A DNA stretch of 64,000 nucleotides, taken from assembly GCF_949628265.1 (NCBI RefSeq), contig NC_088787.1, forward strand, positions 28,696,501 to 28,760,500, given 5' to 3'. Position numbers and translations under genes: made by a program. The stretch comes from Cloeon dipterum (taxonomy: Eukaryota; Arthropoda; Insecta; Ephemeroptera; Baetidae). Position 1 is the stretch's first letter. Every line of letters starts with the position of its first letter. Below are positions 33,076 through 64,000 of this stretch, piece after piece. The notes under the pieces are model-generated. The model searched no databases, was not told the DNA's origin, and worked only from the letters and a program-made list of their open reading frames with translations.

Positions 33076-33782
33076 TTAACATCCAACTTCATTTCTAGAA
33101 TCGACAATGGAAGTTACGTCTACTCCGTTATCTATCAGAACATTCTTCAATACGCCGAATGTGTGGTCGTCAAGTGATCTCGACCTTGACCAAATATATC
33201 CCCACAATGATGGCTCAAAATTTTTCTTATCAATGTTGAAGACCGGGGAGCACAAGATCGCCACAGCATAATTTTCGTAATCGGTCGCCACGATCGCCGC
33301 CTCGTGCACGTCTAAATTTATAGATCAAAACCAAATTATGCTGTTAATAAAGGAAATGATTTTCAAACCTGACCAAAAGTCGGACTGAATTCTCTTTCCG
33401 GCACTATAGAAGAGACCAGGTAACTCAGGGTCGAAGTTCTCCGTTTTCATGGTGACGTAGATTTTCCTACCATTCGATATGTAACTGTAGAGGTAGGCAA
33501 GCTTGTTCAAGCCGGAAGTGCTTGATTTGCTGGCGGTCACATTGAACTCGGCGCATTTGATCGTCCACGGTCGGTTTGCATTGATGTTGTATGCGGCGTA
33601 GTACCAGTGACCGCTAAACTGCGCGACAGAAATGATTAATAATTAAAAGTGCCGATGGATTATTCTAGCTGCTCACGTACCTTTTCGGCATCAAAGTCCG
33701 TTTTTCCTTCCAACTCGGGGCAAAAACTTGCCAGCGAGCAGTGCGCGAGGAGGAGCAAAAAGAGCGCGTCCAGATGCAGCAT
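33076..33782 (-). CDS. Lipocalin A, secreted, three exons
   Basis: Coding exons 33,681-33,782, 33,369-33,618 and 33,076-33,311 join to a 195-residue protein. Both introns (62 and 57 bases) are GT-AG, with phases 0 and 1. A hydrophobic signal peptide covers about residues 1-18. The lipocalin GxW motif is at F35-SGH-W39 and the second signature at T127-D-Y129. Cysteines 21, 56, 138 and 195 match those of the four neighbours and fit the two-disulphide pattern of insecticyanin and bilin-binding proteins. One N-glycosylation sequon (NVT) lies in exon 2. Known for the family: an eight-stranded barrel carrying a small hydrophobic ligand, secreted. The ligand cannot be read from the sequence. The start was chosen because it gives the signal peptide. 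Unlike its neighbours it has no TATA box within 150 bases of the ATG. It is the last gene of the array and codon use is mixed. Confidence 0.9.
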
Positions 33783-35115
33783 ATCGGCGAGTTGATCTCT
33801 CGGGATCTGCCGGGTCAGCCGCTCTCCACGATTGCCGTGCTGGTTAAACTCGTTGAGCTGAGTGGATCCTTGCTAATGCGAAAATTGCTAACAATTGTTT
33901 GCCCATTTGATCTGTGTCCGGTCACTGCAGTCAAACACAAAAAAGCAGGGCTACCACGAATCCTCCTATTGTTAAAAAAGGGTTTATTAAATGCAACACA
34001 AATAACTATATTTTTTATGAAATTATCAATCCGATCTGAGTTATGTCGTTAAAAGTTCAATTCACTACGTGCATTTGTTTTTGCGTTAATTATGCAATTA
34101 ATATCATTTAATCTCAGCATCGATCCGTTGACCTAAAAATTTAATTCGATCGGCAGTTTTTTTACCGAGCTTTTTGGGTAGCAACTGACAAAAATATTGA
34201 TAATGAATTGCTTGTTTCAAAATGTTGACTTACATAACCAACTTCTTAAGTTACCACACGGACGCAATAAATAAGATAAAAAATTGACAAAATTACTTAA
34301 ATTTGTGCTGAAACAAAGTAATGTGAATATGCTTCCAAAATTTTTGTCGGAGAAAAAAAATGACAGCAATTGGTGGATATTTTTTGGCCTTACTTAAGTC
34401 ATAAATTTCAACATGTTCAAGGGGGGTTTTACTCAGTGGCGTCTGAAGTGTGCGCACTTTCGGAGGTTCGAGCTGACTCCCTTGTTGGCCGCTTGCTGAG
34501 CATTTATACCAAGCGAGATAGCGCTGCCTCGCTGCTTGATCAGTTTCGTGAGGTTGTTTCGACTCTCCTCGTATTGAAGTGTCCCATGGCGAGACTCCCA
34601 CAAAATTAACGAAAATTTTTAATGAAATAAAGAGAAAAATATGTTTAAAATACAAATTGTTATATTTAAAAATTGCATGTTCTGATTGCTGGCTGAATAT
34701 TGATTTCTTTGTGAACTATGCAATTTATCAAAAAAAAAACTTTGATTTTTAATATACTTTTTTGCCGCAAAAACTGTTTGTCTGGCAATCGCAATCTTCT
34801 TCTCAATACTGCATAATGCACCTCACACACAAGCGCAACTCTGAAATAACTGTAGCCTTTTAGAAGTAACGTGTATAAATAATTTTTGAGTTCTTTCCAT
34901 ATTATTCATTCCATGATATTGCACTTTGTATGTTTAGTATTCATTTTTTTGGAAAGAAAATTTAAAGAGCTCTTTTTAAGATAAATCCCATTTTGCTATT
35001 TTTTATTATTCAATTGCATACTAAAATAGCACTCGCAAACTAATCACACTTATATTTTATTTTATCTTAAAATAGATGCTTTTCAAATGAAAATTTCAAA
35101 TTCTTTTTAAATTCT
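33783..35115. other. Spacer between lipocalins A and B
   Basis: It holds the possible distal promoter and 5' leader of gene A (34,394-34,508, with a possible leader acceptor giving an exon at 33,783-33,806). The rest is AT-rich and no further exon was found. Confidence 0.4.
34498..34508 (-). promoter_or_regulatory. Possible distal promoter of lipocalin A
   Basis: On the minus strand this reads TATAAATGCTC. About 30 bases further is an initiator-like TCAGCT, then a possible donor ACTTAA|GTAAGG (last exon base 34,394). A matching acceptor GGCAG at 33,807-33,811 would join a 24-base leader exon to the A start codon at 33,782. Gene A lacks a nearby TATA box, so this is a reasonable candidate, but the leader intron is inferred and not proven. 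Confidence 0.3.
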
Positions 35116-35121
35116 TTTATT
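35116..35121 (-). terminator. Polyadenylation signal of lipocalin B
   Basis: AATAAA on the minus strand, 100 bases past the stop codon of lipocalin B. Confidence 0.6.
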
Positions 35122-35220
35122 GTCATGTATCATTACTGCTTATCAGTTGCTGGTTGTTCAGTTATGATGTAAAACATTTTCAGGAAATGCATTTCGGATT
35201 GTTCAGTCGTGGCATCGGAC

Positions 35221-35914
35221 TTAGCAGTTGGTGTTATCGATGTTCTTGATGAGGTCGATGCTGATGTCGTAACCGCTGAGCACGTTCTTCAGGGTACTGT
35301 AGGTGTCCTCGCTGAGGGAAGTGGATCTTCCAAGGATCTGGGCGTACAAGGATCTGCCGAAGGTCTTGGTCTCGGCGTCGAACTGAGGGGCGCACGCCAC
35401 AACGATAGCGTAGTTTTCATAATCGGTGGCCAAGATCGAGGTCACGTAGGGCTCTAGGAAAGAAAAATTGGAAATAGTATAATTATCAACACGAAAAATG
35501 ATGTGGTTACACACCTGACCAGGTGGGAACGTTCTCGCCCTTCCAGGAGCCGAGGAAGAGTCCAGGGAAACCGGGCCTGAAGGCCTGGGAGATGATCTGG
35601 GACTTCGTAGGCTTGTCGTTTTGGATGTAATCGTAGTTGTAGGTGACGGTGACCTTTCCGTCGACCTCGGCACTCACAACATCGATCTTTTGGCAACGAA
35701 CGATCTCAGGATGGTCAGCGCGGTGGTTGTAGCCCAGCAAGTGCCAGTGACCAGCGAACTGGAAATTATCAAGTTGATGAGTATATTCATCAACAAAAGA
35801 AGAGTAAATTACCTTCGAGGGATCAAAAGGATTCTTTGAAGCGAGCAAAGGGCACCTTTCAATGGCCTGAGCAGCCGCGAGGCCAGCGAGCAGGAGGAAA
35901 CAGAATCGGAGCAT
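35221..35914 (-). CDS. Lipocalin B, secreted, three exons
   Basis: Coding exons 35,813-35,914, 35,515-35,758 and 35,221-35,453 give 192 residues. The introns are 54 and 61 bases, GT-AG, phases 0 and 1. The signal peptide ends near A17. GxW is at F35-AGH-W39, TDY at 125-127, and the conserved cysteines at 21, 56, 136 and 192. Exon 3 reads LATDYENYAIVVAC, a strong lipocalin signature. Intron 1 is a multiple of three with no stop, so the unspliced frame stays open through it; the 54-base removal is preferred because it restores the spacing seen in all four paralogues and has good GT and CAG sites. Codons end mostly in C or G, as in gene E, which suggests high expression. A TATA box lies 67 bases upstream. 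Role: extracellular small-ligand carrier by family; ligand unknown. Confidence 0.92.
35759..35812 (-). other. In-frame 54-base intron 1 of lipocalin B
   Basis: Starts GTAATT and ends TTCCAG, with length divisible by three and no stop codon in the coding frame. If retained it would insert 18 residues immediately before the GxW motif. Confidence 0.8.
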
Positions 35915-35980
35915 CTTGTGCTGCGATTGATCTCTCAGTGCGGAGCGGTCAGTGTGCCTGCCACGGGGAGAACTGGCCAC

Positions 35981-35987
35981 TTTTATA
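35981..35987 (-). promoter_or_regulatory. TATA box of lipocalin B
   Basis: TATAAAA on the minus strand, 67 bases upstream of the B start codon. The spacing fits transcription starting about 30 bases further on and a 5' UTR of about 40 bases. Confidence 0.75.
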
Positions 35988-37119
35988 ACCGATCCTGTGC
36001 CCTTGGCCGGTCGTGGGTGGGGCAATCACCCGGACCTAGTCGGCTCTGTCACCAGGCAGACAAAGCCACATTGTAATTTTCCATCAATTACCATCAAATC
36101 CCGAGCTCGTCTACCACTCCGTCTTGTTTGACTCGGATATGAAGGCGAATCTCGCATTGTTTCTTTGGGCCGCGCGTACCTTGCATAAGAAGCGTGCTCG
36201 CAGGGTCTTCGCTAATTTATGCGGCACATTGAATTGGCGCGTCTACTTTGACGTCACACGTTCACGCTGCGATCCCATTTCAATTTGGTATGATTGTAAT
36301 ATCAAGTGGTTTATTGTGTTTCGCATCTCGAGCGCGCGCCGACGATCTGCTCTCTCTGTGCGAATAATGCAAAAGGCTTTTTGATACCGAAGAGACACGC
36401 GCGCGTGCTCCCTGCTCCTCCTGACAGATGAAACGACGGGCCTAATTATTAATTCATCTCCACGTGTTGATCAATACGAGGTGCTTTCCGTGTCTCACTT
36501 CCACCAAGGCGGTTACATGTCGCGATTATTTTCATATTGGAAAAAACAGTTTATTAGAAAAAAAATTCAATTCACTGCTATAATTACTTTTTTCTCTAGG
36601 TGCAAGCATAATTTTTATTACTCCCGCTTGCAAAATTAATCTAAAAGAGGAAATTAAAAAAATATGGATCATGGCAAAATGCAAGCGGACTTTTGATATA
36701 GTTTATTTGCTCCTAAAATATTTTTCAAACAAAGCAGCCAAAAATTGTGTATCGAAACTTTTTAGAAAAATGGTAATTATTTTTCAGTGTAACATATGAT
36801 ATTGCTTTTTCAGTTATTCGTGCTTCCACTAGTTTTATTTTGCATTTTCCTTCAATCTAATTACTTCTTAAATGGGTTTCTTTTCGTCTATTTAAGCAAG
36901 AGAAATAACACCTGAAGTGAAAAATAGTTGAAAATGCTAAATGCATCTAAGGGTTAGCTTTCATGGTCTTAATTTTTACTCTCATTAATAATTTTACTAT
37001 GGTTGTTATTATTTTATTCTTTTACAAATAAATTTGTTCAATATATATCAAGTTGTAAAACCAGATCGGTTAATAACCAACTCAAATAATAATCATAACG
37101 ATTCATACATGTATTTTTC
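35988..37119. other. Spacer between lipocalins B and C
   Basis: A GC-richer part at about 36,100-36,540 is followed by AT-rich DNA to 37,119. No exon is seen. The GC-richer part lies just upstream of the gene B promoter and could hold its enhancer; that is inference from position. Confidence 0.4.
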
Positions 37120-37125
37120 TTTATT
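37120..37125 (-). terminator. Polyadenylation signal of lipocalin C
   Basis: AATAAA on the minus strand, 22 bases past the stop codon of lipocalin C, implying a very short 3' UTR. Confidence 0.55.
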
Positions 37126-37146
37126 AAAATCAGAATTTTTCCAAGC

Positions 37147-38470
37147 TTAATTGTTGCAAGATGAGCTATCAATGTTTCTTATGGATGCCAGTGGAATGTC
37201 ATTGCTGACTAGGATTGCCTTCAGAAATTCCAAGCTTTGAGGAGGCAGGGACGGTGTCCTGCTCATGATCTGCGAGTAGTATGACCTGACGAACGTGTTG
37301 TTCTGTTCGAGATAGTAGTGGGCGCACACACCTTCAACGGCGTAGTTTTCATAGTCCGTGACAATGACGCTTGATTCATAATTGCCTGTGAAAAAAATTA
37401 ATTCACACATGATCTCCTGATTACACCAAAGCAAATTGAAGGAACTAAAATGTGCAACAAATTAAAAAGCAGTAAATCTTTTTATTTTAGAGCCTCTGCT
37501 CAGCACATCCCGTGGGTTATGAGCTCACCGGGTCCCATAAGACCGCCGAGAGGATAACATGGGGGCCCGAGTGGCCGCAGAGGAGCTTTTGGGCCCAATG
37601 TGGCCATCTTTTCGACTGCCCACAGCCAAGGCATTTTATTGAAACGCCAACCATTCGTCCCTAAAGCCGCTGGAGAGGTGCGGAAACAGCAAGTGGCGAG
37701 TCGGCGCCGGTGCGCCTTCCAGCCAGTTAAGCTATTTGAGCATTTATAGTCACTACTATGTCTGACATTAGATATATAGATCCCAGCGATATATTCAAAT
37801 ATATCCCATTGCTTCGGCTCTCCTGAGAATCCTTTAACAATGCAAGCCAACCGGTTTTTTTCACGTTTTCCGTTTTTAAAGTGCAGGTTTCATTTGAACT
37901 TTATTTACGAATCAAAAGAGTTGTGTCTGAAAAAATTCACCCAAAGAGATAAGAAATTGACAAATTTGAAAAGATTGATCAAGAATGAAATATAATTAAA
38001 AATTAACAATTCACCAATGGACTGATATAATTAATATTTTGGAAAAAAACCACTCACTGGACCAGGTGCTGGCGCCATCCATTCGCCACACGCTCTGAAA
38101 TCTGCCCGGATTCTCAGAATGCAACGCCTGCGCCACCTTGTGCGCGGTGCCCAGCTGGCCGTTCTCGACGTAGTTGTATTTGTAGACTAGGGTATCTTTC
38201 CCCGCCACGTTTTTGCTGTGGGCAATCTCGATTTTTCCGCATGACATCTGTCCTGGATGCGTTGGGTGTTCTTTGTACGCCACGCTGTACCATTTACCTG
38301 CGTACTATGCAATTTTGGGTGTGAACATTTTTTTTTAAATAGGGGTTTCTAATTTGTCGTACCTTTGCTGCGTCAAACGGTTTCATGTAAGAAAATGTTG
38401 GGCACGTGTCTTCTGAGAATACGGGCGCAAGCGATAAGAAAATCGCGAATAATGCAAAAGCCGCTCTCAT
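37147..38470 (-). CDS. Lipocalin C, secreted, three exons
   Basis: Coding exons 38,363-38,470, 38,058-38,304 and 37,147-37,385 give 197 residues. Phases are 0 and 1, both introns GT-AG. Intron 1 is 58 bases, but intron 2 is 672 bases and holds a GC-rich block. The signal peptide ends near S19. GxW is at Y37-AGK-W41, TDY at 128-130 (VTDYENYAV), and cysteines at 23, 58, 139 and 195. The protein ends in CNN, two residues past the last conserved cysteine. A sequon (NNT) follows the TDY region. The surface loops differ from the neighbours and codon use is mixed. A secreted ligand carrier is expected from the family. Confidence 0.9.
37386..38057 (-). other. Long intron 2 of lipocalin C with GC-rich insert
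   Basis: The equivalent intron is 57, 61 and 85 bases in A, B and E. Here about 37,490-37,830 is GC-rich against AT-rich flanks. On the minus strand it carries TATAAATGCTC (37,738-37,748) and the 13-mer AAATGCTCAAATA (37,733-37,745), the latter also present in the gene D promoter. A minus-strand open frame of 116 codons crosses it but resembles nothing. It may be an inserted fragment or an internal promoter. Confidence 0.5.
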
Positions 38471-38511
38471 TTTGGCTCAGACGCTTGTTGTTGCCTCGGT
38501 GCTTGACTCCT

Positions 38512-38540
38512 GACTGAAAACGAACGCGAATGATTTTATC
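38512..38540 (-). promoter_or_regulatory. Core promoter of lipocalin C
   Basis: On the minus strand, GATAAAA (38,534-38,540) is followed about 24 bases later by TCAGTC (38,512-38,517), a match to the arthropod initiator TCAKTY. The initiator lies about 45 bases upstream of the ATG. The TATA element is non-canonical. Confidence 0.5.
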
Positions 38541-39408
38541 GCACCAAGCATATCGCATGCATTGCTCTTTGGCCTTTTGAACTGCATTTAGAAATATGAT
38601 CGTTAAAGCCAGCTAAAAATGATAAATATCAATTGTGCGTACTTTAAGATGGAGAAAGAACATAAAACGAGAATGCATCATTTAAATTAAACGCTTGTTC
38701 ACTGTTTTTCTTTCAGACATGAATTGCTAAATCTATATAATATAGCATCCAAAGGTCTGTTTCTAAGCAATTTTATTTTTGTTTGATGGAAATGGATCTT
38801 AATTACATTTTCATTAGAGTCCAATTACTATTATTGTGGTATATTAATGGATAATTGACAAACTATAAAAAATTACATCTACTCATTTGTAATGTATCTT
38901 GCTTCTACAAAAAACATGAAGAATTTTACCAATCTGACAGTATTTTATATTTTTAATTATCTAAATTGAACCCATATTAATTTAAAGATCTGCCATTCAT
39001 GGAGTTTTTCACTATAGCTTTGAATCCTTCTCATCTTAATTTGAATTTATGACAATTTTTTAACATTAATGTACTTGAGACTTGGAAGAGAATAAACAAC
39101 AATATATAAATTATTAAGTATCATTTTAGGGACATCCTTGCTATCATAGTTCTTCACCAAAAATACGATCATTGAATTTAATAACTTGATTTAACTGGTT
39201 TGAATGAAAGTTGTTGAGCCTTTAACATATATACACAGTACTATTTTTTTAGTACGAATATTTATTCAGTTAAACCAGTTGGGTTAAAGGGTAATTTTTT
39301 AAGGTCATTGAGTAAATTTCCTTTTTACTTTAAAACTTATGAAGTGAATTCATAAATCCACAGCGAATGGGAAAAATATTTAAATATCAAACGTTCTAAA
39401 TTTTAAAA
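38541..39408. other. AT-rich spacer between lipocalins C and D
   Basis: No gene or recognisable element seen. A near-inverted pair (ACTGGTTTGAATGAAAG near 39,195 and AAACCAGTTGGG near 39,275) hints at a weak hairpin, but it is not long enough to name. Confidence 0.4.
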
Positions 39409-39414
39409 TTTATT
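39409..39414 (-). terminator. Polyadenylation signal of lipocalin D
   Basis: AATAAA on the minus strand, about 90 bases past the stop codon of lipocalin D. Confidence 0.5.
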
Positions 39415-39502
39415 TGTCTTGCTAGAAGCACGGTATAAAAATGAAATTTTTTCGCTTTAGTTCTCCCGCTCTGCAAACACCAGCAGTGTTTAATATTTAA
39501 CT

Positions 39503-41310
39503 CTACTGACAATTAGAGTGATCCATAATTTTCATTGATGCAGTGTCAATGTCGTAGCTACTCATGATGTTGTGCAGAATTTCCAGCGTTTGTTGAGGAA
39601 GGGTTGTATTTCTTGAGTAAACGTGAGCGCACATAGAGCGGTCCATCTTCATCTTTTCTTCGTTGAAAATTGTTTTGCAGGAGATTGTGATGGCGTAGGT
39701 GTTGTAGTCCGTGGCCACAATATACTTTTTGTAGGGATCTGTAATGGAGAACCACATGTCAGATTTATTATTTTAATTTTTTTAAATTTAAATATGCAAA
39801 CATTTCAAACGAGAGTTTTAAAAATAAACTCGATTGCACTGTCTGAAAGTAAAAGTTATGTGTTTCTTAAATGTTGATTTACTTTCAACGATACCGTTTT
39901 ACCGCAAATCAGATTCTATGTTTTAATAATTCAACTGGAAATTAACTACAGGACTTTAGAACCAAAAGATCTTTCACTTTATGCGAAAAGAGGCTTTTCC
40001 ATTTTAATTATTCCATTTAAAATATACTCAATGTTCGGAATCATTTGATTCGTCTCTCATGCAAAACCACACCAGTACAATCAGTTAACGATACAAGCTG
40101 ATTTTCAACATTCTGCCTCTCGAACTGCGCCAAATTTAAGCTTATTACTCTCTCAGGCTGCTAGAGACTTGAAAGCAGCAATATCGGAGTGCTTGGTTTA
40201 TCTTAATAGTCCGTGTATGCCGTTGTATTCAGGTTATTAATTTGGAGGGTCGTCGGCTGTAAATTCGGTGCACTACTTGCCTGACCACTGGCCGCCTTCC
40301 TGCTTGAACACCGCAAACGACTCGGCCGTTTTGCCCTTTTCCGCCACGCTGTAGACTTCGTCCGTTTTCAGTGAGCCGTCCAGCGTCTTGTGCGGCAGCT
40401 GGTAGTCGAGGATGGTCGCTCCGTCTTCAGTCGTCTTCACGGTTACATTCATCCTGGCGCACTTCTCTTCGGTCAGTTCCGTCTCCATGTACGAGATCAT
40501 GTGCCAAAGTCCAGCAAACTGAAAGATCAATATATTTTGAAGAAAACCATCAGCTCCCGTCACTAACAGGAATTGAAGTCAGGAGCAACGGAATAAAATT
40601 TTAAGCATGATTCACAATAACTGATTTGATAAGCCTTCTTTACATAACCAAGATTAAGTCTTGTTAATAAATGCTTTTTGTCATTCGTGTATTAGAACAG
40701 ACAAAATTTGGTTCAAAATTCATTTTTACTTGATCAAGCAATCATCAGCAATCTGGAAATTTTAATTTAGAAAAATATGATAAACGTTATTCACCTATCT
40801 AGCCAAATTTACTTGTATATTAGTGTGCAAGATTAAAAACTTCGTTAAGCCTCTCCAAACGGGGCATGTTTTCTAGATGAGAAGATTTTTACGAAACATA
40901 TTTTTTACTCTCCGCAGAAAAACTTATTATGAACTCAACGTAACAACAGCAAAAATTTAAGCTATAGAAGTTCGGCTTAACTTTGAGTTCTAGTTCCAGC
41001 CCTCCCAGCCAATCTTAAAAGCAATGGAACGGTTAAAAACTTAAAAAGAGTTAATCTATTTTGAGTCTTTTGTGAATGCTTTTATTTTATATTTTGTTTA
41101 GATTTGATCTATGATATATTATGAAAGAGGCACTGCAAGTTAATCCAAGCAACGTTTTTCAAATGAAATCGAAAAGGAAATACGCACCTTTTGTTGGTCG
41201 AACGGCGTCTTGCCAAAAACCTTTGGACATTTTCTGACGAAAGCCTTGTTCTTGTTCTTCCCAGCAGCCACGACGGCCAGCACACAAAAAAGGAGCACCA
41301 GGAATTTCAT
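39503..41310 (-). CDS. Lipocalin D, secreted, with a GC-AG intron
   Basis: Coding exons 41,188-41,310, 40,281-40,518 and 39,503-39,738 give 198 residues. Intron 1 is 669 bases (GT-AG, phase 0). Intron 2 is 542 bases and starts with GC instead of GT (TCAG|GCAAGT). The nearest GT, four bases on, would put exon 3 out of frame, whereas the GC site restores the family frame exactly. The signal peptide ends near G17 and is followed by a basic KNKNK segment not seen in the other four. GxW is at F42-AGL-W46, TDY at 130-132, and cysteines at 28, 61, 141 and 197. Two sequons (NVT in exon 2, NTT in exon 3). It is the most divergent member in exons 1 and 2. TATA box present. Confidence 0.9.
39739..40280 (-). 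other. GC-AG intron 2 of lipocalin D
   Basis: The donor is GCAAGT after TCAG, and the acceptor ATTACAG is normal. GC donors make up roughly one per cent of introns in animals and usually keep a strong match elsewhere, as here. Frame and comparison with four paralogues both require this donor. Confidence 0.8.
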
Positions 41311-41393
41311 TATTACTGCTCTCAGGCTATAAGGCTGGCTGCTCTTCCCGCGACGCTGAAGAACGAGTGAAAAGCGCTTCACGTGCCGCAGCC

Positions 41394-41400
41394 TTTTATA
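41394..41400 (-). promoter_or_regulatory. TATA box of lipocalin D
   Basis: TATAAAA on the minus strand, 84 bases upstream of the D start codon. The 13-mer AAATGCTCAAATA lies a further 18 bases upstream (41,418-41,430). Confidence 0.75.
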
Positions 41401-41417
41401 TCTTTGTCTGCGCTGAG

Positions 41418-41430
41418 TATTTGAGCATTT
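41418..41430 (-). promoter_or_regulatory. Shared 13-mer upstream of the D TATA box
   Basis: AAATGCTCAAATA on the minus strand. An identical copy in the same orientation is at 37,733-37,745 inside intron 2 of lipocalin C, and the shorter form AAATGCTCA is at 34,496-34,504 in the possible promoter of A. It could be a binding site kept through duplication. B and E lack it. Confidence 0.4.
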
Positions 41431-42703
41431 GCCCCGTGTTAAATAATAGCGACGAATTCTATTCAGGTTGACCCCCAAGAGGTGCCAAGCGGAGCCACTG
41501 ATTAAGTGCCATTTTCGCCTCTGCATTGTTTGCCAGAGTGACATTGGCGTTTGCAAAGTGATTCTCTTTCCTCTTTCGGTTAATCGAGGTCGTTGATCCT
41601 GTAACGCATATCTAATTGCAAATTTAGATTTTCCCATTCAAATTATGTGGCACTTTTGTTTTGCGAAAATTAAAATTTTAGTTTTATAATAACATGTTTT
41701 CGTTCTGATAAAATATCCGTTTTTTTGTTATTTTAAAACTAGCAATTTGTTCCAGGGTTAGAGTGATACGTTTTATACCATTGTGTATTTAAAATATCGC
41801 GTGTTTTTTTTCATGAAACAAAAATATAGATTGAACGCAATTTATGTGAAGAACACTTTCCTGTTTGTGGGATATTTTTCAATTGAAACGAGTTTATATC
41901 AACAAATAACTGCGTAAAATATTACCTGAGTAGGAGGAAATAGGTCAACGCAAATTCACAGAACTCCTTAAATTCTATCATCATGTGACTCTGATACGTT
42001 GAAAATTTAAAAATAAATATACAAGAAACTTTTAGAATTAGTAGATCTAATAACACAGCTATAACGTAATATTCAATGGGATGATTTCAAGATTTATTTA
42101 TATTAACTGTTGCCAATAATAAATTCTAACGCTTGTAATTGTTTGTGTTTAATAATTAAAATTCATATAAGTTAGGAGACTTTTACATGATATTGATAGT
42201 TTTAAGATTTTCATCAAATCTACTCTAAATTTTAAGTGCTTGTATTAAATAATAATTTTTTTTACTTGTGTGGCACACAATTACGTCGACTCAATTTTTT
42301 GTTTCGCACTCATGCAGTTACTGATTGTCATTTTGATCTTTGTTCACGTGACTTCAATAGTTTATTTTTAATTACAATATTTCAAATCAGTATATCAATG
42401 AACGATTCATAGGCGAGACCTATCAGCTTTTAGTAAGTAAAATAATTTATTTTCTTAAAATATTAGGAAATTAAGGCATATATTTATACTTTAAAATCTG
42501 TCAAGGTGTATTATTGAGTTCCATAAATTTTCGAAATTTGTTCAAATATTTTAAGTCTATTTTGTGCAATGAACGATCGTGGTATTACTTCTTTTTACAT
42601 ATTTTTTATCTACAGCGTCACAACTTTTTGATGGTTGTATGATTTTCCCTGGTGGCAAATATCTTTAAAAAATCAAAGAGCAACATTTTTTGGGTTTTTT
42701 GTC
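41431..42703. other. AT-rich spacer between lipocalins D and E
   Basis: About 41,431-41,640 is moderately GC-rich and may be upstream regulatory DNA of gene D. The rest is strongly AT-rich and nothing is recognisable in it. Confidence 0.4.
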
Positions 42704-42709
42704 TTTAAT
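42704..42709 (-). terminator. Possible polyadenylation signal of lipocalin E
   Basis: ATTAAA, the common variant signal, on the minus strand about 170 bases past the stop codon. No AATAAA lies nearer. Confidence 0.35.
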
Positions 42710-42877
42710 TATAAAAGAGTTCTCACATTCAGGTCATTTTATCATTTCGTAAAAAAATTAACTCGAAATCTTCAGTTTGTTCCATTAAAAACTACACAAT
42801 CTATGAGCGCTTAAATGCATTTTGTTTCTTAGTCAAGTTTCAGTCCAGTTTTCTTAGCGGGAGTCGTCATGTTAAAT

Positions 42878-44345
42878 TTAGCAAGAGTTGTCGGCCAGCT
42901 TGATGCTATCATATTCGATGTCGTAGCTGGTGAGAAGGCTCTTCAGGGTCTTCAGCTTCTCCTCAGGGAGGGTGGTGGTGCGGCTGAGGATGGTGGCGTG
43001 CAGGTCGCGACCGAACTCCTTGGTCTCCTCGTTGAAGGTGGGTCTGCAAGCGAGGAACACGGCGTAGGTATCGTAGTCGGTGGCCACAATAGCCTGCTTG
43101 TACACGGCTGAAACGGAAAAATATGACAAAATAAATTATAGAAGAAAACTCACGGCGAATTCTTTCTATTCGTAATTTATTTTTATGCTTACCAGAGAAA
43201 CTGCTAGCCTCCTCCTTCTTGTAGGTGGCGTAGGCCATGGCTCCCTTATCACCCTTGCTGAAGGTGATCATCTCACCAGCCTTGTTCTTGCCGTCCTGGA
43301 TGTATGTGAACTTGTAGTTCAGGGTGGTACCAGACTCGCCCTTGAAGGACGACACGCTCAGCTTGGTGCACTTCTTCTCGCCGAACTTCTCATTGGGCAA
43401 GTAGGCGACGGCGTTCCATTCTCCGGCGAACTGTGTGACAGAAGAAAGTAATGATGATTACTCGTAAGCTGCGAGTGCGTGCCAGATTGCTTTTCTATTC
43501 AATTGCTGAAGGAAAACGAGCGTCCTCTAATGGAACCGATCGCATTAGGCACCCGCTAAAAGGGCGAAAATAGAATGATCAATCGCATAAAGGAAAAACT
43601 ATAGCGATGATTTTTTTGTTTGTGTAAATTAAATTTCACAGCTACTAATTGGAAACTAATTTGCGTCGCTTTGAACAAGGTGCTCATGTGTTTCAAGTAC
43701 TTTGCCTAGTCCGCACTAATCGTCAGCCTGCTGTGCTTTGACTGACACGTAATCGAGCAGCTAAAAGGCAGTAGACTGCTCGAGAGTGATAATTGATTGA
43801 CTGCTCCATTAAGGCAGCGAGCAATTACACACAGGACACGACTGATTGCTTGCGTGTGCATGTGTGGCAAAAGCCGCATCGATCGGCGCCAATTCAAATG
43901 ATACCGGGGCCTCGAAATAGTCAAACTGCAGTGAATCGAGGGCGAAAAGAAGGGTGTTCGTTCGAAAAGGAGGCGCTCGGAATTAACGAAGCCGCGCACG
44001 TAAAAAGAAGAGAGCTGATATTTCGCTTGAGATGAGAACGGAGCGGCTGGGCGGGACGCTCTTTCTCATTCAGCACGCGTGCGAGGCGCGTTGCATAAAT
44101 ACAATCTCCTCTCCGCTACTGATTTCAATGAGCGTGCGGCGATAAATAAAGAAATTACTCGCTCCGTCTCCGATTTCAATTTGAGAACCGAATTTCGAAC
44201 CGAATTCAAACACGACGGAGAATTTTTGTCTCACCTTAGCCTCGTCGAATGGGAATTTGCCGATGGTCCAGGGGCACCTCTTAAAGTGGTGGTCAGCGGT
44301 AGCGACGGCCAGCAGGGCGGCAAGGACAACAATGTAGCTATTCAT
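42878..44345 (-). CDS. Lipocalin E, secreted, three exons
   Basis: Coding exons 44,235-44,345, 43,193-43,430 and 42,878-43,107 give 192 residues. Introns are 804 and 85 bases, GT-AG, phases 0 and 1. The signal peptide ends near A17. GxW is at F38-AGE-W42, TDY at 126-128, and cysteines at 24, 58, 137 and 192. All twelve lysine codons in exon 2 are AAG and most third positions are C or G, a bias shared only with gene B and suggesting strong expression. It is the first gene of the array in transcription order, has a TATA box 56 bases upstream, and may be close to the ancestral copy of B; a tree would tell. By family, a secreted carrier of a small hydrophobic ligand. Confidence 0.92.
43431..44234 (-). 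other. Intron 1 of lipocalin E
   Basis: Eight hundred and four bases between GTGAGA and CACACAG. The GC-richer stretch at about 43,730-44,060 differs from the AT-rich remainder and could hold an intronic enhancer; no exon was found in it. Confidence 0.5.
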
Positions 44346-44400
44346 GTTGGCTGAACGACTTGTTGGCCTGATGTGGGACGAGACACCGGCCGGCAGGTCC

Positions 44401-44407
44401 TTTTATA
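44401..44407 (-). promoter_or_regulatory. TATA box of lipocalin E
   Basis: TATAAAA on the minus strand, 56 bases upstream of the E start codon, implying a 5' UTR of about 25-30 bases. Confidence 0.75.
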
Positions 44408-47400
44408 CAAGAGCCAGAGCATCAGGAGAACCGGCTCACAACACCTTTTGGCATTGACCTTGGATGAGAGCAACACCGAGATGGGCATCAGGATGGGTGG
44501 GAGGACCGCGTGTGCTCCGAGCCTTATCACCGTGCAGAGAAGAAGAATTTGCCGCTCATGCTTTATGTTGTGTGAATTTGTAGGTTTCTTTTTGGTTGCC
44601 AACAGCAGACAATGTGGTGGATGATCCTTAATTTGCTTTTTGCTTTACTGAAGGTTAAAATTAATTCAACTTTTTCCTTATACATTTATCTCCTTCATCT
44701 CCCATTGTTTTTTTTGCAATTTAAATGGCCTTGCAAAATAACAGCACACTATGTTCCCTAAATGTCACTTAAAAATAATAATTATATAATTCTTTCTCCT
44801 ATTTAAATGAGGTAATAATTTTGGTAAGTGATATTTTCTGCATATAAGCTGTAAAAATAGAGTAATTTAAAATTTGCCTATATGAGAAAAGCACTTTACA
44901 AAAAATATTCGTCGCCCGGCCGCTTTAGCAACATGTAAACAAACTCACTGGGATATTTATTATTTATATTTCTAACAAGCTGATTTTCTCTAAGATTCAA
45001 ATTAAAATCTTGAAATCTTTTCTTTGTTTGAATATAAATACGTTTGGGATAGAGCGGCTTTACTCAATACTTATCTGCAATAAAGATATGAAATTATATA
45101 GGAGGGCCATTGATAAGCTTGACTTTGCTACATTATTTTGTGTAATACTGATTTTTACTTGAGCAAGAAATTCTCATATAAAAATTTTCCAAAAAGAGAG
45201 CTAAGAATATGTGTACAGCAAAATTAATATGAGTTGAATGATTTTTCTCACAAAATATTTTCATTTGTTTAATATTTATTTGTCAATTTCTGCCTCACAA
45301 TCAGCCAATAATAAATTCGGTGTTACGGTACAGATTTAGAAAGTTCTAGAATATTTAATCAAACGAATGTCAGAGTCTCTCTCTCTCTCTCTGCAGCAGC
45401 CAAAAACCTCTAATGATCGAGATGCCCATTTGCGTTCACCATCTCGTGCATGTGAAATAAAAAGAGGGAGTTGAGAAAATTAATCATGCGGCGAATGCAA
45501 GAGATCGTGATTTCGGGCGAGAGAATTTTTAAAGGGCAAGAGTGCGTTGACCGTTCGTCAGAGAAGAATGGTCGCTCTGTAGATTCATATATTATTTTAT
45601 CTCTCTGCATCTTCTAAAGTCACTTGTCAAAAGCGTTCGCCAAAGAGCACTCGAAAGATATTTACGATGGAAGCATCCAAAGGAAAATTAAGAATTGCCG
45701 GGCGGCCAGCCGCTCAGGATTTTTAAAAAATGCGTTACATTGATGGCTCAGAACATTACGCAATACTATTTATATCCCATTTAACTGAATTAACTGATTT
45801 CGTCTCTTTTTTCATTCATTTGTTCTGCGAAGAAATATTCAGCGCATATTATCAAAAATAAAGTAATTGTAATATCATTAAATAAATATTTTTTCATTAA
45901 AAAATAAAATTTGACTTTTTTGATATAGTTGGTGCCTTGTTTACAACTGAAATAAATTTATGCTATCATGTTCTTGGCAAAAGATGTTTTATCGTTAATC
46001 GTACTTTTTACAATACATGTTAAATCATAAATCGACGTATTGCCCACGGGCATGCGGCATGACATAGAGCTTTTGTTAAACGTAATATGCGCCACCAATT
46101 ATGAATACAAATTTAACGTCGAAAGTTCCAATTTTGAGTCCCTCGCAATTGGATGAACTTAACGAGCAATGATAATAAAAAATGCAACATTCCGCTGCTT
46201 TGAAATTTTAATATCTATGTTATAAGATGGTACGAAATAGAATGATCGTACCAATCCAGATTTAGGCATTATTTGCATCAAGTAAAACATGCTTGAAATA
46301 TTTTTATATGTAGCATTTATTAACTTCATAATATTAACCACATACATATCATAATGCGATTAATTATACAATGCATGGACAGAGAGCAGCAAATTACTCA
46401 TGTGCAGTATTCGAACTTGAAAAAAATGGAATAAAGTTAAACAAAATACACATATCGCTATGACTAGCAGAACGTGAAAACCACGACAGACTTGCAAAAT
46501 GAGTCAACACTTTCGTTTCGCGAGGCGTCATGTGTGCTCTTTGGTCGGTACATCGAATGTTCGCGAGAGCCGAAATGTGCAGACGCGGTCGTTGGTAGTG
46601 GTGTGATTTATCTCGCAGCCTAGTCTGTTACCAGGGAACGCAACCTGAGCAGGCGCATCTGCCTGGCAACAGAAAGAGCTCATCCTTTCCAGATGTACCT
46701 TCCTTCACCTTCTCACAACAAAGACGCGCCTCTCTCATACGCGTTGCTCGAGCGAATTAAATAAGTTTTTTGTTCTCTCCACGGCACTTCGCACTCGCGA
46801 CGCGAAATTTTACTCGCTTGATGGCTCTCGCTGCAATTATACGCGGCATGGAGACGACTTACATAAGCACGAATTGTTACATACACGATAATAATTGCTT
46901 TTATCGCGCTGCTGCCACTGCCAGTATGTAATTAAATCCTCTTGTGAGTAGTATTTGATGATACATTTTATTCAACGCGCAATAAAAAATGTATTCGCTC
47001 TTCGCCCTGGAATTGTTGTACCTTTTTTCTAAGAAGACTGAGTTGACTATTAGATAACGAACAGTTCAATGCAGATATTTTTATGAACTTGCAAATTTTT
47101 GCATGTGCTGTCACCATTTTGAAATTGTTTTAATCCATGAAATAATGAAAACAAAAATATCTTTTTGTACGAATCAATTAAAATTATTTTTATAAATAAT
47201 TAATACCTATTGGTCAAATCCATCCTCTATGTAATAATTCAAGCATTTTATTTTCCTAAATTGATTGCGAATATGAGAAGATGTCTGCGCGTTGGTGTTT
47301 TGTTGCGACGCTCCCAGATCGCAGCATCCGCCAATTCAGCGCCCTTGTCTGCAGGGGCGTAAAATCGATTTTAGGGTAGCAAGGGCGCAGCAGTTCACTT

Positions 47401-49663: not shown

Positions 49664-49970
49664 CGATGATCGACTAAATCTCGACTTCTAATCATCTGAT
49701 TTTGAAAAACCGCATACCGTTAGACTCGTCTCGACGTCCCAAAGTGCACTAAAGGGGTACGAGACCCACTAACCCCCAACCCCCATTTAACCCCCTCAAT
49801 AACGGGAAATTTAGCATTTTTTCGTCTGTTTCAACACATTGGCACGACGTTGACGAGTAATTGCCCTCTTTAAACCCATTCAGTTACTTAGTTCACTTAA
49901 AAACTAGTCAAACGGTACATATTTTTCGTAAATAGGACCACCACAACCCGAGATTCGGGTGCACAAAGCT
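49664..49970 (+). repeat. Tandem duplication, copy 1
   Basis: About 307 bases, from GATGATCGAC to the CACAAAG after the palindrome, repeated at 50,003-50,309 with a period of 339 bases and visibly about nine bases in ten identical. Contains the 15-base palindrome ACCCGA-GAT-TCGGGT at 49,946-49,960. Confidence 0.85.
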
Positions 49971-50002
49971 TTTTTTATCAAGACGCGATGCAATAATATG
50001 CT

Positions 50003-50309
50003 CGATGATCGCCCAAATCTCAACTTCTAATCATCTGATTTTGAAAAACCGCATACCGTTAGACTCGTCTTGACGTACCCAAGTGCAATAAAGGGGTATG
50101 GGACCAACCAACCCCCAACCCCCTTTTAACCCCCTCAATAACGGGAAATTTAGCATTTTTTGTCCGTTTCAACACCTTGGAACGACGTTGACGAGTAATT
50201 GCCCTCTTCAAACCAATTCAGTTACTTAGTTCATTCAAAGACTAGTCAAACAGTACGTATTTTTTGTAAATAGGACCACTAAAACCCGAGATTCGGGTGG
50301 CACAAAGTT
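50003..50309 (+). repeat. Tandem duplication, copy 2
   Basis: Second copy of the unit at 49,664. Its palindrome is at 50,284-50,298. The copies have diverged by scattered substitutions, so the duplication is not very recent. Confidence 0.85.
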
Positions 50310-54312: not shown

Positions 54313-57300
54313 TCATCTTGCGGCGGCACTCATTAACAACAACACGACGATGGTGGCGACGATTGATCGGCACGTGGGTGTCGTCTTTTGCGCCGAGGCT
54401 CTGCTCGCGTCGGCAGTCACGTCCTTGGCGTCGGCCTCGTAAGCCAGCAGTGGAGGCGCTGCAAGCCAAACAATCGCTCATGAGACTTCCCTCTGATTAT
54501 GTACGGCGAACGGGGTAATTAATTTTTGGGACTACGCGTTCGCTGAAAGGAACAAATCGACGCGCTCGTTGGCTCGGGTTTCCAATTTGGAGAATTCATT
54601 TGCGGGATTATTGATTGGTGACAGCAGAGTGATTACAGAAGCTTTGGAAACTGAAGAAAGAAAGCCCTGTCATGTGAATGAAATGAGATAGAGGTGCCTG
54701 CCTAATGGAATGATGGAGTTCAGATTTTGTTGAAAAAATGAGATTTTTTCTAATCTGCCAAAAAATGATATAGTGCGTACCAGAGTATTTTTTTCTGGGA
54801 CTTATAAAAGCAAATTAAAATCGTGATAAATTGCGGCATTACACAAATTGAAACAAATTTGGCAATAAACTCAAAGTAAATAAGTGAGCTGTCTTCACTA
54901 CAAGATGAAAACCCTGCTACTGGCAGCATATGCAACCCGCTAGACATGTCAGCCTCGCAGGTTGCAGCAACACTAACTTATACATATAATACTTCAAAGA
55001 GATTGAAATTCTAATCAAACTTTATAATTGGTATATCCTGAGAGGAAGCATTTATTTTGTCTCTAATCGGTCTGAAAATATTAAAAGTAAAAAACCATGC
55101 GTCTTTGTATTAAACTAGATAGAACACAGCTTTAAGTTTTTCAGAAATAAATTAAAGATACTCTTGCACTCACTGGAGAAGTAATTCACAAGCAACCAAA
55201 CCCAATTTTTTAGTACCACAAATTTTTTAAACATATCCAGAAAGCGGTGAAATTTGAAATGAATGAAAATTCTCAAGAATAAATGTTTAAAATTTTTAAT
55301 TGCAAGTTTGAGATTAAATCCGCTGTTTGCTTTGTATATTTATCGTTGTTACGATATAGTATAACAGTGCTAACAGCCACCGTTCATAAAGCCTTCACAT
55401 TGTAAATTTAGGTCTTTGGGTCGTTTTACCGGACGTAGTGGTGAAAACGCATTTAAAATTAAGCACATGGTGGGAAAGCCTGGCTTGATAGTTACCCTGC
55501 GATGGGGTCGCCAAGTAGTAGACTTCTTTGATCTTAGGAGCCCTAGTTGGCCTGCGGGTTGTTGTGCTTGTTGTTGGCTCTGGAGTGGTTGTTGCTGAAA
55601 CATCCAACAAGAGTATAGCTTGCACGCAGGCGAAAAGTGATTTCAGATCTATGTGCCTGGCACAAAAGGGTTACCAGAGCGCGGTGATTGTACGGTTTTG
55701 TGGTGAAAACTTACTTGGTGTAGTTATGATTGGAGGCTCGGTTGTTATCACTGGTGGCCGCGTCGGAACTTTAATTTCTGCGGAACAAAGAGAGATCGAC
55801 TTACACTATTTGTAAGAAGGTCGATTCCGCGTGCATTTTATACGACGGCAATCGCAAAAAAAGGAAGTCATCGAGTAAAATTCGTAGAAATGAGATTCTC
55901 ACCATACAATCGAACTGTGCCATCTGCCTTTCCCATCGAGTTTGTGGACACGCAAGTGTATGTGCCGATATCTCTTTTGCTGAAGTTGCGAATCGTCAGC
56001 TTGAAGTGAACTCGGTACGAGTTCTTCACTTCGTCCACCACGTACTTTTTTCTGCAACACAAACGAAGGAAATGAGAAAAAGCTGCTGGGCCAAACTCTC
56101 GGTACAAGCTGTTGGACAGGCTGCGTAGAAAAAAATCAAGGGTTTGTTGTGTCAAATGGGAGTTAAGTCGAAAAAGTATCAATAGAATTCCTTTCAATCT
56201 TACACAGCGAGCACCTTTTTAAAAAAACGGGGTATTTGGATTTCCAAAATAGGTGATAGTTTTTAAGAATGCCATGATAGCAAAATTTTAATCTCGATCG
56301 GATGTTTTAGATTAAATATCCAAATAATGAATAACATCTTCCACTTTTTATAGCATTAAATAATTACGTAACAATCCCCCATAGCAACTTCTTAGCGGAG
56401 AGACAAATTTAGTGGTTATTTCACACCACATTTCCTGCAGTGTTTCCTTGCATAATATCATTTAGTGCCCAAAAGGCTATGCAAGTGTTTCGCAAATTGT
56501 TCAAGGTGAGTCAAGCCTCGCAAGGTGGAACAAAAGAAGTGGCTACAGAAATGTAATGAATGCGAGAGTGGCGTCATTTGTATTCAGCACAGACGACATT
56601 ATTCCGAGCAGACGAGGAGGTGGATTAAATAGCCGTGAAGAGTGCAGAACCAAGATAATTTTTCGCCGGCACCCGTAGGTACGAATGCAATTATGCACGC
56701 AAGAAATCCGAGCGGAAGCAGAGTGCGGCTGGTGAGTTACGCTCGCTTGCGTCTGAAATCGAGCTGGAAAAATCGCGGGTCGAGAGAAGTTAGCGAGACT
56801 TTTGCTATTCTTGCCACCGCGCGTCCAAACACAAACACACAAGTTAAAGACTGACGAGTCTGCCGCGCACTTTTGCACTTCCAGCTCACGTTCGGATGCG
56901 TTTTATTCGCGTATTTACACACGGTAAACCGAGTTTGCCTGTTTTTTTCCCCCGGCAACAAGGGCTAACGCCAGCTGGCTGGGCCATCAGTCAAGTCAAG
57001 ACGTACGCGTGCAGCGTGATAGGGAGAACTGGATTGAGGTTTCAAGGGTAGTGTTAAAGTGCAGTTTGTATAAAAAATTATAAGTAATTGCAATAAAAGC
57101 GAAGAATCATGATGTGATGTACAAGAAAAATGAAATTTTTACTCAGATTTTTTTTTTGAAATTTTTATCTTTTAAATGGCCATTCAAATAAAAATTTATA
57201 TTTTAAGGCTTTTATTAAAAATGAGTTAGTCGTAGACTTAAGAGATTTCATCACCCGCTTCTCCTTTTTATCGTGCTCAGCAGTGACTTCAGCAAATACC

Positions 57301-60300
57301 GTGGCGTGAAAGCAGTGAAGCATTTCTGACGATAAGAATGGTGAACAGTAAGAGGAAAAGAGTTAATTTTTTCTTCTTCTTTGAAGCTGTAATCTGAATT
57401 ATACATAACATTAGATTGCATTAATATGGCTCATCTAGGGCACGAAAAATTGAATTATTGATTTTGAGAATTTTGAGCGATTTTCCTATCGAATTTCCCA
57501 AAGTTTCATTTTAGTAATGAACGCAATTCTAACGAATGAATGCAGAAATATTGTTGGATTTTCTATTTATGATACCTGTAACGACTCTAAACCCCTTTTT
57601 CGAGGTTGTCTAAAATTTGATGTTTGTGATGTGAGCAAAATGGAAACAATGTATTAAACAATAAATATCAAAACAAATATGAGCCAAGTCATTCCACTGA
57701 GTATATACAAAGCTTTTTATTTCGATAACCCACCAATTTGATCAGATTAAGCCAAAATCTTTGATACACTCAGTCGCCAATCAAATTCCAATCAATGGAA
57801 TTTTATTTTCAAGGTTGCATGGCTATAACATATTCATGTAGTTGACATACGATAAAATATGCTTATGATAGCTATTGTATATTTTTCACAATCAGGCGTC
57901 ATACACCAATCGTGTGCAATCAAATATTTACGAAAGAATTAATTTAGTAATCCTCCAATAGGAAGGTTGAGCAGATTCCTCTACGAACCGCACTCCCGAG
58001 TGAGCAAAGCAGAAGACTGACGGAAGGAAGAGTGAGCAATCAATCAGATTATTTTGAGGAAAGCGGATTAGGGCGGAAAAGCGGTCCACTAGTCGAAACA
58101 AAATCGCTCAAAGGAGAGGGCAAAAAGGTTACGCTCGGATAATTTGTCACTGCCCTAACAGTGGTAAAAAAAGGGGTGCACAACACACAAACGCAGCAGC
58201 AATCTCGTCTGTCCGTGAAAATCATCGAGTTGGAACCGATCGGCGCCCTTTATTTCATATTATCGGCCCTTTCGCAGGCAAACAAACATATCTGGGCCGC
58301 GTGCTCGGCCATATTGATTCAGACTGGTCAACTGGAAGAAATAGAGCAGAGATTTGATCCACCCGGGATGTGATATAAATTTTATAAGACACGCAGCTTT
58401 TCTTCTTCATTATTTTTGCCTCCCTTGTTTCTCTCCAAATCGGATTTTTTGAATATTCTCAAACCACGCTGGAGCAAGTGGATCGAAGCCAAATGAACAC
58501 GACCGACACTTTTCCCCATTTTGAGCTTATCTTTTTCGCTAATGCAGTGGGCGCTGAGTCAGATTTATCATTTTTTACAATTGGAAACGAATCCTGTGCG
58601 ACACGGAAACCATCGACAGCTCACAACCGCGATTATACGAGGTAAATTATTGCGCTTTGCCGCGCGGTCTGTAAATTAGATTTTCTCATTATATTCCCAG
58701 CGTAATTATTTGCCTAGCGCTTGGATTTGTTTGTTACAAATTTTGCCACCTGCATATCTCCAGTGGCTTGACAATAACTTTGAAAATTACACATTGAAAT
58801 TGCTTAAGGAGTGTATCATTACAATTTCTAACAGTGATTTAATTCAGTATGATCAATAAATTTGTCTTTAAAAATTCAAAATTTAGGACGAATTAAGGAA
58901 AAGAGACGCACAATGTGTGTAGTCATAATCACTTTGTTCCAATTACAGCGTCGACTCTTACATGAGAGTATGCTTAATAAAATAAGGCTGTAAGTTAAAT
59001 TCGGCCGTTACCAATAAGGGCCGCGCTTCATTACGCGCGCGTAAATGGTAATTGCATTTTGCGCGCCAGCCAGCAGCCAGCCGACGGACATAAATTGTGC
59101 GGATTAAATTATTTAGCCACACGGCACATGCTGCCGGCTGAATTTATTATCGCATCGCGCTTCGCAATTCGCACTTTGCCAATTCTCGTGCAGTAATGTT
59201 GCGTGTTCGAATCCTGCGGGAAGCGAGCACTCCCGAAAGGCGGTTGCTTCATTTATTTAATGAACGACAAACACCAGCAGCCTCCCTGCCCGTGTTTATT
59301 GTCCAGATCAATAACTAACCGCATAAAATGCTGGGGTGAAAAATTCGCCCGCTGATAATTGGTAAAATTTTAAAAACATTACAAAAAATACTTTACTCCG
59401 AGCCTTAAAATCATCAATTATATGTTTCGTTGTGATGGATTTTTTTTGGGAAAATTTTTCAACAAATATTTTTCGATAGCTCATAATGGAAATATTTAAA
59501 TTATTTTTCAATCATTGCTAATATTCATAATAATTCCAAATATTTCTAACCCTTAGTAGATTTTTTCTCTCCAAATCAATTAAATTGGTCAAAGTGTTAG
59601 TGCACTAGACTCTTATCCATGTCACACTTAGATATGTGAACTTTCAAGTTTTCAACCAGTGCGCTGTTTCCATATTTGACCAAGCAATGGCGAAGAAATG
59701 ACCACAAACGAATCCAATTGCAGTTAAACGTTGCAATATTTTAAATCATAAAACTGCAAGAAAAAAATGAAAAGATCTAAAAAGGTATTTATAAATCTAA
59801 ATTCAAATTTAAGTTGGTGTAAACCTAATTTGCTATCGTAATGGCAGCTCAAATTATATCATTAATGGTCTATATTTTGCTGAAGCTAAGACGCGTAATG
59901 AGGATGAATGCTTGCCTGTAAAAACGGAAATCATTTGGCTTTCCGCAGCACTGCACCTTTTAATAATCGGAGACAGCGGAACAGCGCTGCATACAACTGC
60001 TGCAATCAATGTGGTATTTTCATTTATTCAAGTATGCACAAAGGTTTTGAGACGTAACCTACTTTCTTCTTTCTTATTTGAATAATACTTTAACAAGCAT
60101 TATATACAGCTCGATCCAGCATGAAGGGATTTTATCGGCTTTCACGGTAAAGGCAGATTGACAAACGTCACTGGATAATTGCACATTGCCTGCTCGTCCA
60201 ATTTCATTTTAAATTACCTCAAGTTTTTACGTCGAAGCACATTTATTATGAGGAAAAGTCATAAATAGAAAATAAAGAAGCATAGCAAAGGATTCGAAAT

Positions 60301-62978: not shown

Positions 62979-64000
62979 CTGACCAAACAGAAAGAGCGAT
63001 GCATGAATTTCATTTTGCACCACATACATGACTGAGTGAGAAAACTAACTCTCAAATTATTATTAGTTTGCTCTATTTATTTTCGCGCGAAAGTTTCATC
63101 ATAACAATACATTGAATTTTTGGGCCTCCCAACTGATTTGCGATAGGATTTCCGATTACGGATTTCCCAACAGACGAAAAACAAATTTGACCCCATTCCC
63201 TAATTAAAATTTAACACGCTTCTGTTAATTAAAACGAATAAGCCAGAGTGAAAGCACTAATCAATCAATACAAAAAGTTGCACCACTAATTTAATCAAAC
63301 AAACATGCTCGTAGCTCTTTGTCGCGTAACGTACCAAAAACCAATTAATGCACACCCCATTGCCGAGTGTTCATCAGGGCAGCAAGGGTAAAAAGAGAGC
63401 GCAAAACGTGACCGTAATAACCGCTTTGGTGAGTGACATCAGGTGAAACCGATAATTTGTTGCCGCAAGAAACAAAATGCGGCGCGCCGACGTGCACCAT
63501 TAATCAAACCCAGCGTGACGGTGCACCGACCGCAAAGGAATAATTTGAATCCAATCAGCAATCGATATATTATATGTATTTGACAACGCGCCGTTTCCAA
63601 ATTGTAAAAGCGCAAAAAGCGAGTGTTCACAAAGCGGGTCGAAACAGCGAGCTAGGTTGGACGGGTCGAAATTAATTTTGATGACAGTTGATCTGCTGCA
63701 TATGAGCCTGCTGCGCGCCGCATGCATTACATGTGATCCATCACCTAGGGTAGCCAGTGGCGTCGTCAAATTGGGTTCATGGTGCTCGTACTTTTAAGAA
63801 TAATAAAAATTGGCAACGGTCATTAAATACTTGAAATAAGAAGGCTAGTTTGTGACGAGCTTAATTAAAAAATTGATATTGTTTGGCATTTTCCTTTCGT
63901 GAATAACAAATTGGTTTTGTTTTACAAATTAAACTAAAAAGTTACCCTGCATATCTGCAATACAGTCAAATTTTGAACATAAGCTATTTATTCTCACGGA
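62979..64000. other. Upstream intron of the Ig gene, no exon seen
   Basis: Neither strand shows the first half of an Ig domain or a signal peptide. The missing exons must lie further along, past position 64,000. About 63,430-63,750 is GC-richer. Confidence 0.45.

Follow-up and report, generated by a model that had tools for sequence, protein, structure and literature searches.

The question raised by this locus is why several lipocalin genes lie side by side in one mayfly genome, and what their products carry. The window, by which we mean the whole analysed stretch of 64,000 nucleotides, comes from Cloeon dipterum contig NC_088787.1 (positions 28,696,501 to 28,760,500, forward strand). Five lipocalin genes, here called A to E, occupy window positions 33076-44345, all on the minus strand. 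On the sequence evidence given below, the array is very probably an old tandem cluster of secreted lipocalins of the ApoD type, which would carry hydrophobic ligands and whose pockets have diverged. The gene models were rebuilt from the raw sequence and are as follows:

33076-33782, minus strand: lipocalin gene A, 195 amino acids; exons 33782-33681, 33618-33369 and 33311-33076.
35221-35914, minus strand: lipocalin gene B, 192 amino acids; exons 35914-35813, 35758-35515 and 35453-35221.
37147-38470, minus strand: lipocalin gene C, 197 amino acids; exons 38470-38363, 38304-38058 and 37385-37147.
39503-41310, minus strand: lipocalin gene D, 198 amino acids; exons 41310-41188, 40518-40281 and 39738-39503.
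42878-44345, minus strand: lipocalin gene E, 192 amino acids; exons 44345-44235, 43430-43193 and 43107-42878.

Each gene has three coding exons, and the frame runs uninterrupted from ATG to stop in all five. Intron 1 is in phase 0 and lies just 5' of the GxW motif, while intron 2 is in phase 1 and lies shortly 5' of TDY. A first-pass annotation of this DNA had described five intact genes on a single strand, encoding 192-198 residues and sharing these two introns, GxW, TDY and four cysteines. On rebuilding, its coordinates and counts were right, the shared features held in every gene, and no stop codon, which that annotation had named as a sign against the models, was found inside any of them. 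Nine of the ten introns are GT-AG. The sole GC donor belongs to intron 2 of gene D (window 39739-40280), which begins with GCAAGT directly after an exonic AG and ends with CAG. The five proteins are 28-40% identical in pairs, as measured on the five-protein alignment. Its invariant columns include Cys 21, 56, 138 and 195, G37, W39 and T127-D128-Y129 (numbering of A), and the gene D product has an additional Cys157 in its mature part. The N-termini, read by eye, are hydrophobic and leader-like in all five. An interspersed repeat that is abundant in the genome also has a copy within intron 2 of gene C (window 37470-37890). The best 40 of 2083 first-look candidates for this repeat were scored, and the other copies are 75-84% identical.

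Kernel lipocalins are defined by GxW near the N-terminus, in structurally conserved region (SCR) 1, together with TDY in SCR2. Both motifs are present in seven of seven family members, namely A to E and two further genes, F and H, that were found elsewhere in the genome. The four cysteines of all seven align with those of ApoD, and the disulfides they would form are predicted. When Pfam profiles were compared with the array proteins, Lipocalin (PF00061) was above its cut-off in C (25.3 bits), D (32.4 bits) and E (28.5 bits). Triabin (PF03973), a lipocalin-like family, was above its cut-off in A (28.3 bits), B (22.5 bits) and C (23.1 bits), fell below it in E and was not reported in D. A profile built from the five proteins was also run against the PDB, where it matched ApoD (2.9e-18), insecticyanin (7.9e-15), sandercyanin (6.4e-13), RBP4 (6e-9) and crustacyanin A2 (8.9e-9). 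Judged by sequence, the assignment of the predicted proteins to the lipocalins is secure.

Chance resemblance or spurious gene calls were ruled out by mutual recovery. With gene E as the sole query of the 190-Mb genome, the best exon of each of A to D was recovered at E-values of 6.8e-7 to 5.3e-18. With gene B as the sole query, the best exons of A, C, D and E were recovered at 5.4e-11 to 2.6e-17. The weaker exons of the array genes reached E-values of up to 0.065 in these searches. A seven-member profile was then compared with the 2,783 open segments of at least 15 amino acids in the window. Fourteen segments scored above threshold, and together they account for all 15 array exons. This profile was built partly from the array genes, making the comparison a test for leftovers rather than independent proof. 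The profile detected no leftover or decayed lipocalin exon in the window; the next segment had an E-value of 0.065.

Since the genome was searched with B and E only, and only the best candidates were scored, the family has at least seven members. H lies on contig C1 (21399251-21399999), is intact and has the same intron phases as the array. Besides these seven, the genome yielded four further lipocalins. Three ApoD/Lazarillo-like genes (C4a to C4c) lie at about 28.58-28.59 Mb on contig C4, and one gene lies at about 20.7 Mb on contig C2. Their Triabin matches are weak and below the cut-off, and are backed by tblastn and by reading of the frames, with C4a the weakest. The three genes on contig C4 (28581000-28590500) are on the same strand and make up another lipocalin cluster of this genome, with greater divergence. 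An exon-by-exon PF00061 search of the genome gave one match, at C5:7940931 (29.8 bits), although searches of this kind miss multi-exon genes. The match was rejected as a member: its frame looks like that of a cytosolic fatty-acid-binding protein, and tblastn queries with A to E gave no match at that place at an E-value of 1. A like search for odorant-binding proteins, a family for which 167 genes are mentioned in Cloeon (PMC7250882), also gave one match, and a COX1 search gave only a 46-position fragment with stops on contig C2.

A tree was built from 15 rows: A to E, F, H, the four other lipocalins of this genome, ApoD, insecticyanin, bilin-binding protein (BBP) and sandercyanin. Sampling is thin and the arthropod breadth small. 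The C4 and C2 rows use approximate exon joins, and C4a has a long branch. The seven members form one clade (support 100/99) on a long separate branch, with E and F as sisters (100/99). Insecticyanin and BBP form a clade of their own (98/96), with the array outside it. The first-pass annotation had treated the five genes as a family that should group together. This stands in the broad sense that all five belong to the seven-gene clade. They do not form an exclusive clade by themselves, because F, the sister of E, is on contig C3, and H, on contig C1, also falls within the clade. A tree that groups the array with F and leaves H out is suboptimal, and it is not rejected by the approximately unbiased (AU) test (p-AU 0.346). 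The proposal of repeated duplication with divergence, every copy being kept intact, is supported.

The number of synonymous substitutions per site (dS, by the NG86 method) is 1.1-4.7 in nine of the ten pairs of array genes and could not be computed for the tenth. These values are near or at saturation, and by this measure the array is old and does not represent a fresh burst of duplication. No DNA similarity between the array copies was detected at an E-value of 1e-6 when the window was compared with itself by blastn; none of the three repeat pairs found in this comparison joins two array copies. The ratio of nonsynonymous to synonymous change (dN/dS) across the array was dropped as uninformative, with dS at or near saturation. 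The exon plan of the array was probably largely inherited from genes of the ApoD/Lazarillo type, because C4c has both of the array's introns plus two more. When read by eye, two of the four introns of this five-exon gene have the phases of the array's introns and lie no more than about two codons from their places. In the C2 gene, an intron occupies the GxW position, and there is none just before TDY. The cysteines and motifs of the array likewise look inherited from genes of this type.

The one younger event that was found involves gene E. It is defined by the following segment:

41681-46031 (4.35 kb), no strand assigned: segment with gene E, of which an inverted copy lies on contig C3 at about 8040414-8045723, with the intact copy F inside.

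The segment and its counterpart align in four collinear blastn blocks that are 86-92% identical, with no similarity beyond either side. Copy F (C3 8042427-8044597) has an intact frame and introns as in gene E. Judged by this alignment, the copy is recent, interchromosomal and intact. Global alignment of the noncoding parts gives 252 differences in 3,497 aligned bases (7.6% after correction) and 51 indel events, three of which span 363-405 bases. Across the 579 coding bases there are 29 substitutions and not a single indel; about 8.4 indels would be expected at the noncoding rate (P ~2e-4), so selection has maintained the reading frame. The protein is altered by 21 of the 29 coding changes; with NG86, dN is 0.048 and dS 0.067, a ratio of 0.72. 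Replacements affect 13 of 79 codons in exon 2 and 4 of 77 in exon 3 (Fisher p 0.038, for a contrast picked post hoc). We also considered that F evolves faster than E, as the branch lengths of 0.091 vs 0.022 suggest. Relative-rate counts disagree: the changes in F and E, respectively, are 4-4 with D as outgroup, 5-3 with B, 3-1 with A, 2-3 with C and 2-1 with H. Being recent, the E/F pair is suited to the question of whether a relocated lipocalin alters its ligand pocket.

The pocket residues were compared with those of ApoD, in which Trp127 lies in the pocket and Met93 has an antioxidant role (PMC8530192, as given in the available excerpts). In the Trp127 column the seven members have Y/Q/Q/H/T/T/N, so that Trp is replaced in all of them. 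It is kept in ApoD, insecticyanin, BBP and two of the four other lipocalins of this genome (C4c and the C2 gene). In the Met93 column the seven have S/S/S/S/S/T/E; Met93 is also missing from insecticyanin, BBP and sandercyanin. Because Trp127 is absent from all seven, an early change in a common ancestor is indicated, which suggests that this ancestor had already departed from the ApoD pocket. In the lipocalin fold, the exon 2 region holds most of the barrel strands and the mouth loops, and exon 3 holds the TDY region and the helix. Identity is lower in exon 2 than in exon 3 in 15 of 15 pairs among six distinct members, with a near tie for C and H (25/78 vs 25/77). Since exon 2 has diverged more than exon 3, the copies probably differ in their ligands or in the tissues where they act.

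Several observations weigh against the proposal of an old ApoD-type cluster with diverged pockets. Sandercyanin likewise has no pocket Trp, and the loss is thus not peculiar to the seven genes. The E/F ratio of 0.72 implies that protein-level constraint since the latest duplication has not been strong. The ratio of replacement to silent changes in that pair, 13:2 in exon 2 and 4:4 in exon 3, does not differ significantly (p 0.13). Finally, apart from E and F, the branching inside the seven-member clade is weak (bootstrap 61-71).

Four other explanations were weighed against this proposal. That the genes are true orthologues of ApoD/Lazarillo, with roles in lipid handling and stress protection, would fit the top rank of human ApoD among the single profile matches, the four cysteines in common, and the TDYENY that A, B and C carry as ApoD does. 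A tree that joins the seven with ApoD is not rejected either (p-AU 0.251). We nevertheless regard orthology as very unlikely. ApoD/Lazarillo-like genes are present elsewhere in the genome, on contigs C4 and C2, and of these C4c has more introns and both C4c and the C2 gene retain Trp127, whereas all seven members have neither Trp127 nor Met93 and sit on their long separate branch. Secreted effectors restricted to one lineage, resembling triabin or nitrophorin and binding amines, haem or proteins, would account for the Triabin matches in A, B and C. This is most improbable, given that Triabin was unreported in D and below the cut-off in E, and that PF00061 is the better match in C, D and E. The host is a mayfly and presumably does not feed on blood, which also counts against effectors of this kind.

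The other two explanations concern the ligand. The genes may encode pigment carriers of the bilin- or carotenoid-binding group, like insecticyanin, BBP or crustacyanin, that contribute to body or haemolymph colour. Insecticyanin is the second-best PDB match of the five-protein profile, and sandercyanin and crustacyanin A2 score too. There is also a precedent in the Bombyx lipocalin Chbp, whose name we take to mean a chlorophyllide or bilin binder. In the available excerpts of PMC8214410, the gene lies on chromosome 25 with five other lipocalins. Insecticyanin and BBP stand apart from the seven in the tree, however, and still have the pocket Trp that was replaced in every one of the seven, and a pigment role seems rather improbable to us. 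Losing this Trp is in itself compatible with pigment binding, as the chromoprotein sandercyanin also has no Trp at this place. Another possible explanation is that the proteins are carriers of semiochemicals (odours or pheromones), which would be expressed in antennae, legs, gills or glands. The family is multigene, clustered and strongly diverged within the species, corresponding to the first criterion, and to the within-species half of the second, in the excerpts of PMC8214410. The further criteria there are divergence between species and expression in chemosensory organs. The same excerpts have the authors, Zhu et al. 2021, saying that evidence on binding and localisation is still needed for such a role. 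We consider semiochemical transport unlikely, if somewhat plausible on these analogies.

If the array is an old cluster of ApoD-type carriers, as we propose, a leader peptide would export each protein. The mature protein, with two disulfides, would form a calyx of eight strands, and this calyx would carry a small hydrophobic molecule in the extracellular fluid. Since duplication, exon 2 has changed more than exon 3 among the copies. It is possible, and we put this forward tentatively, that the seven genes are a carrier family of one early-branching insect lineage, probably the mayflies, and that this family specialised ligand by ligand after the pocket Trp of ApoD had been lost in its ancestor. 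If this is true, the copy of E on contig C3 would represent pocket-side (exon 2) divergence under way at the present day.

Upstream of the array genes, the following candidate promoter elements were noted:

35980-35987, minus strand: TATAAAAG, probable TATA box of B, at -73 from the ATG.
38532-38539, minus strand: ATAAAATC, TATA-like element of C, at -69 from the ATG.
41393-41400, minus strand: TATAAAAG, probable TATA box of D, at -90 from the ATG.
44400-44407, minus strand: TATAAAAG, probable TATA box of E, at -62 from the ATG.

The octamer TATAAAAG occurs eight times in the window, counting both strands, and three of these occurrences lie in the 120-bp upstream regions of array genes (B, D and E). 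No TATA-like element was seen within 200 bp of the ATG of gene A. GC content at third codon positions is 0.75 in B and 0.81 in both E and F, vs 0.60-0.66 in A, C and D and 0.50 in H; the GC content of the window is 39%. We infer that the high values of B, E and F are those expected for well-expressed genes.

On the right flank of the array (window about 55500-63000), probable immunoglobulin (Ig)-domain exons lie on the same, minus strand and resemble those of a neural adhesion protein. Three of these exons were scanned; one was above its Pfam cut-off (I-set) and two were below theirs. PDB matches of one of them include Roundabout, contactins and Dpr-interacting proteins. A direct repeat at window 49664-50307 consists of two copies of about 305 bases, 91% identical and separated by 34 bases. 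No Pfam match at an E-value of 0.01 came from 20 chosen open reading frames of 112-236 amino acids that lie beyond the array, including 12 in the left 33 kb.

No literature on mayfly or dragonfly lipocalins was found among open-licence papers, and a search of Cloeon papers for the word lipocalin found no instance in their main texts. Among known systems, ApoD/Lazarillo (human ApoD, PDB 2hzq) is the closest, as its match to the profile extends over nearly the whole mature length with cysteines, GxW and TDY aligned. The ApoD/Lazarillo-like gene C4c of this genome also has two introns in common with the array, one before GxW in phase 0 and one before TDY in phase 1. The array differs in having three coding exons vs five in C4c, in lacking Trp127 and Met93, and in its separate clade. 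The array also resembles insecticyanin and BBP of Lepidoptera (1z24 and 1bbp), which are secreted insect lipocalins whose sequence starts with CP..FD..GxW and contains TD.KNY. These two form their clade without the array and keep Trp127. Crustacyanin A2 (1gka_B) matches over profile positions 20-186, although more weakly than ApoD and insecticyanin, and it has no row in the tree.

Clusters of this kind are known from other insects. According to the available excerpts of Zhu et al. 2021 (PMC8214410), 9 of 12 lipocalin genes in Bombyx mori and 5 of 8 in Helicoverpa armigera lie in two clusters each, and most within-species pairs are about 20-30% identical. Those excerpts also describe expanded, divergent lipocalins in many arthropods, for which a semiochemical role was suggested without proof. 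The array resembles the Bombyx and Helicoverpa clusters, as excerpted, in being a group of strongly divergent clustered lipocalins. It differs in belonging to another insect and in that five of the seven clade members found are in one cluster, where those species have two each. The array is an ordinary insect gene cluster, another case of the clustered lipocalins already known.

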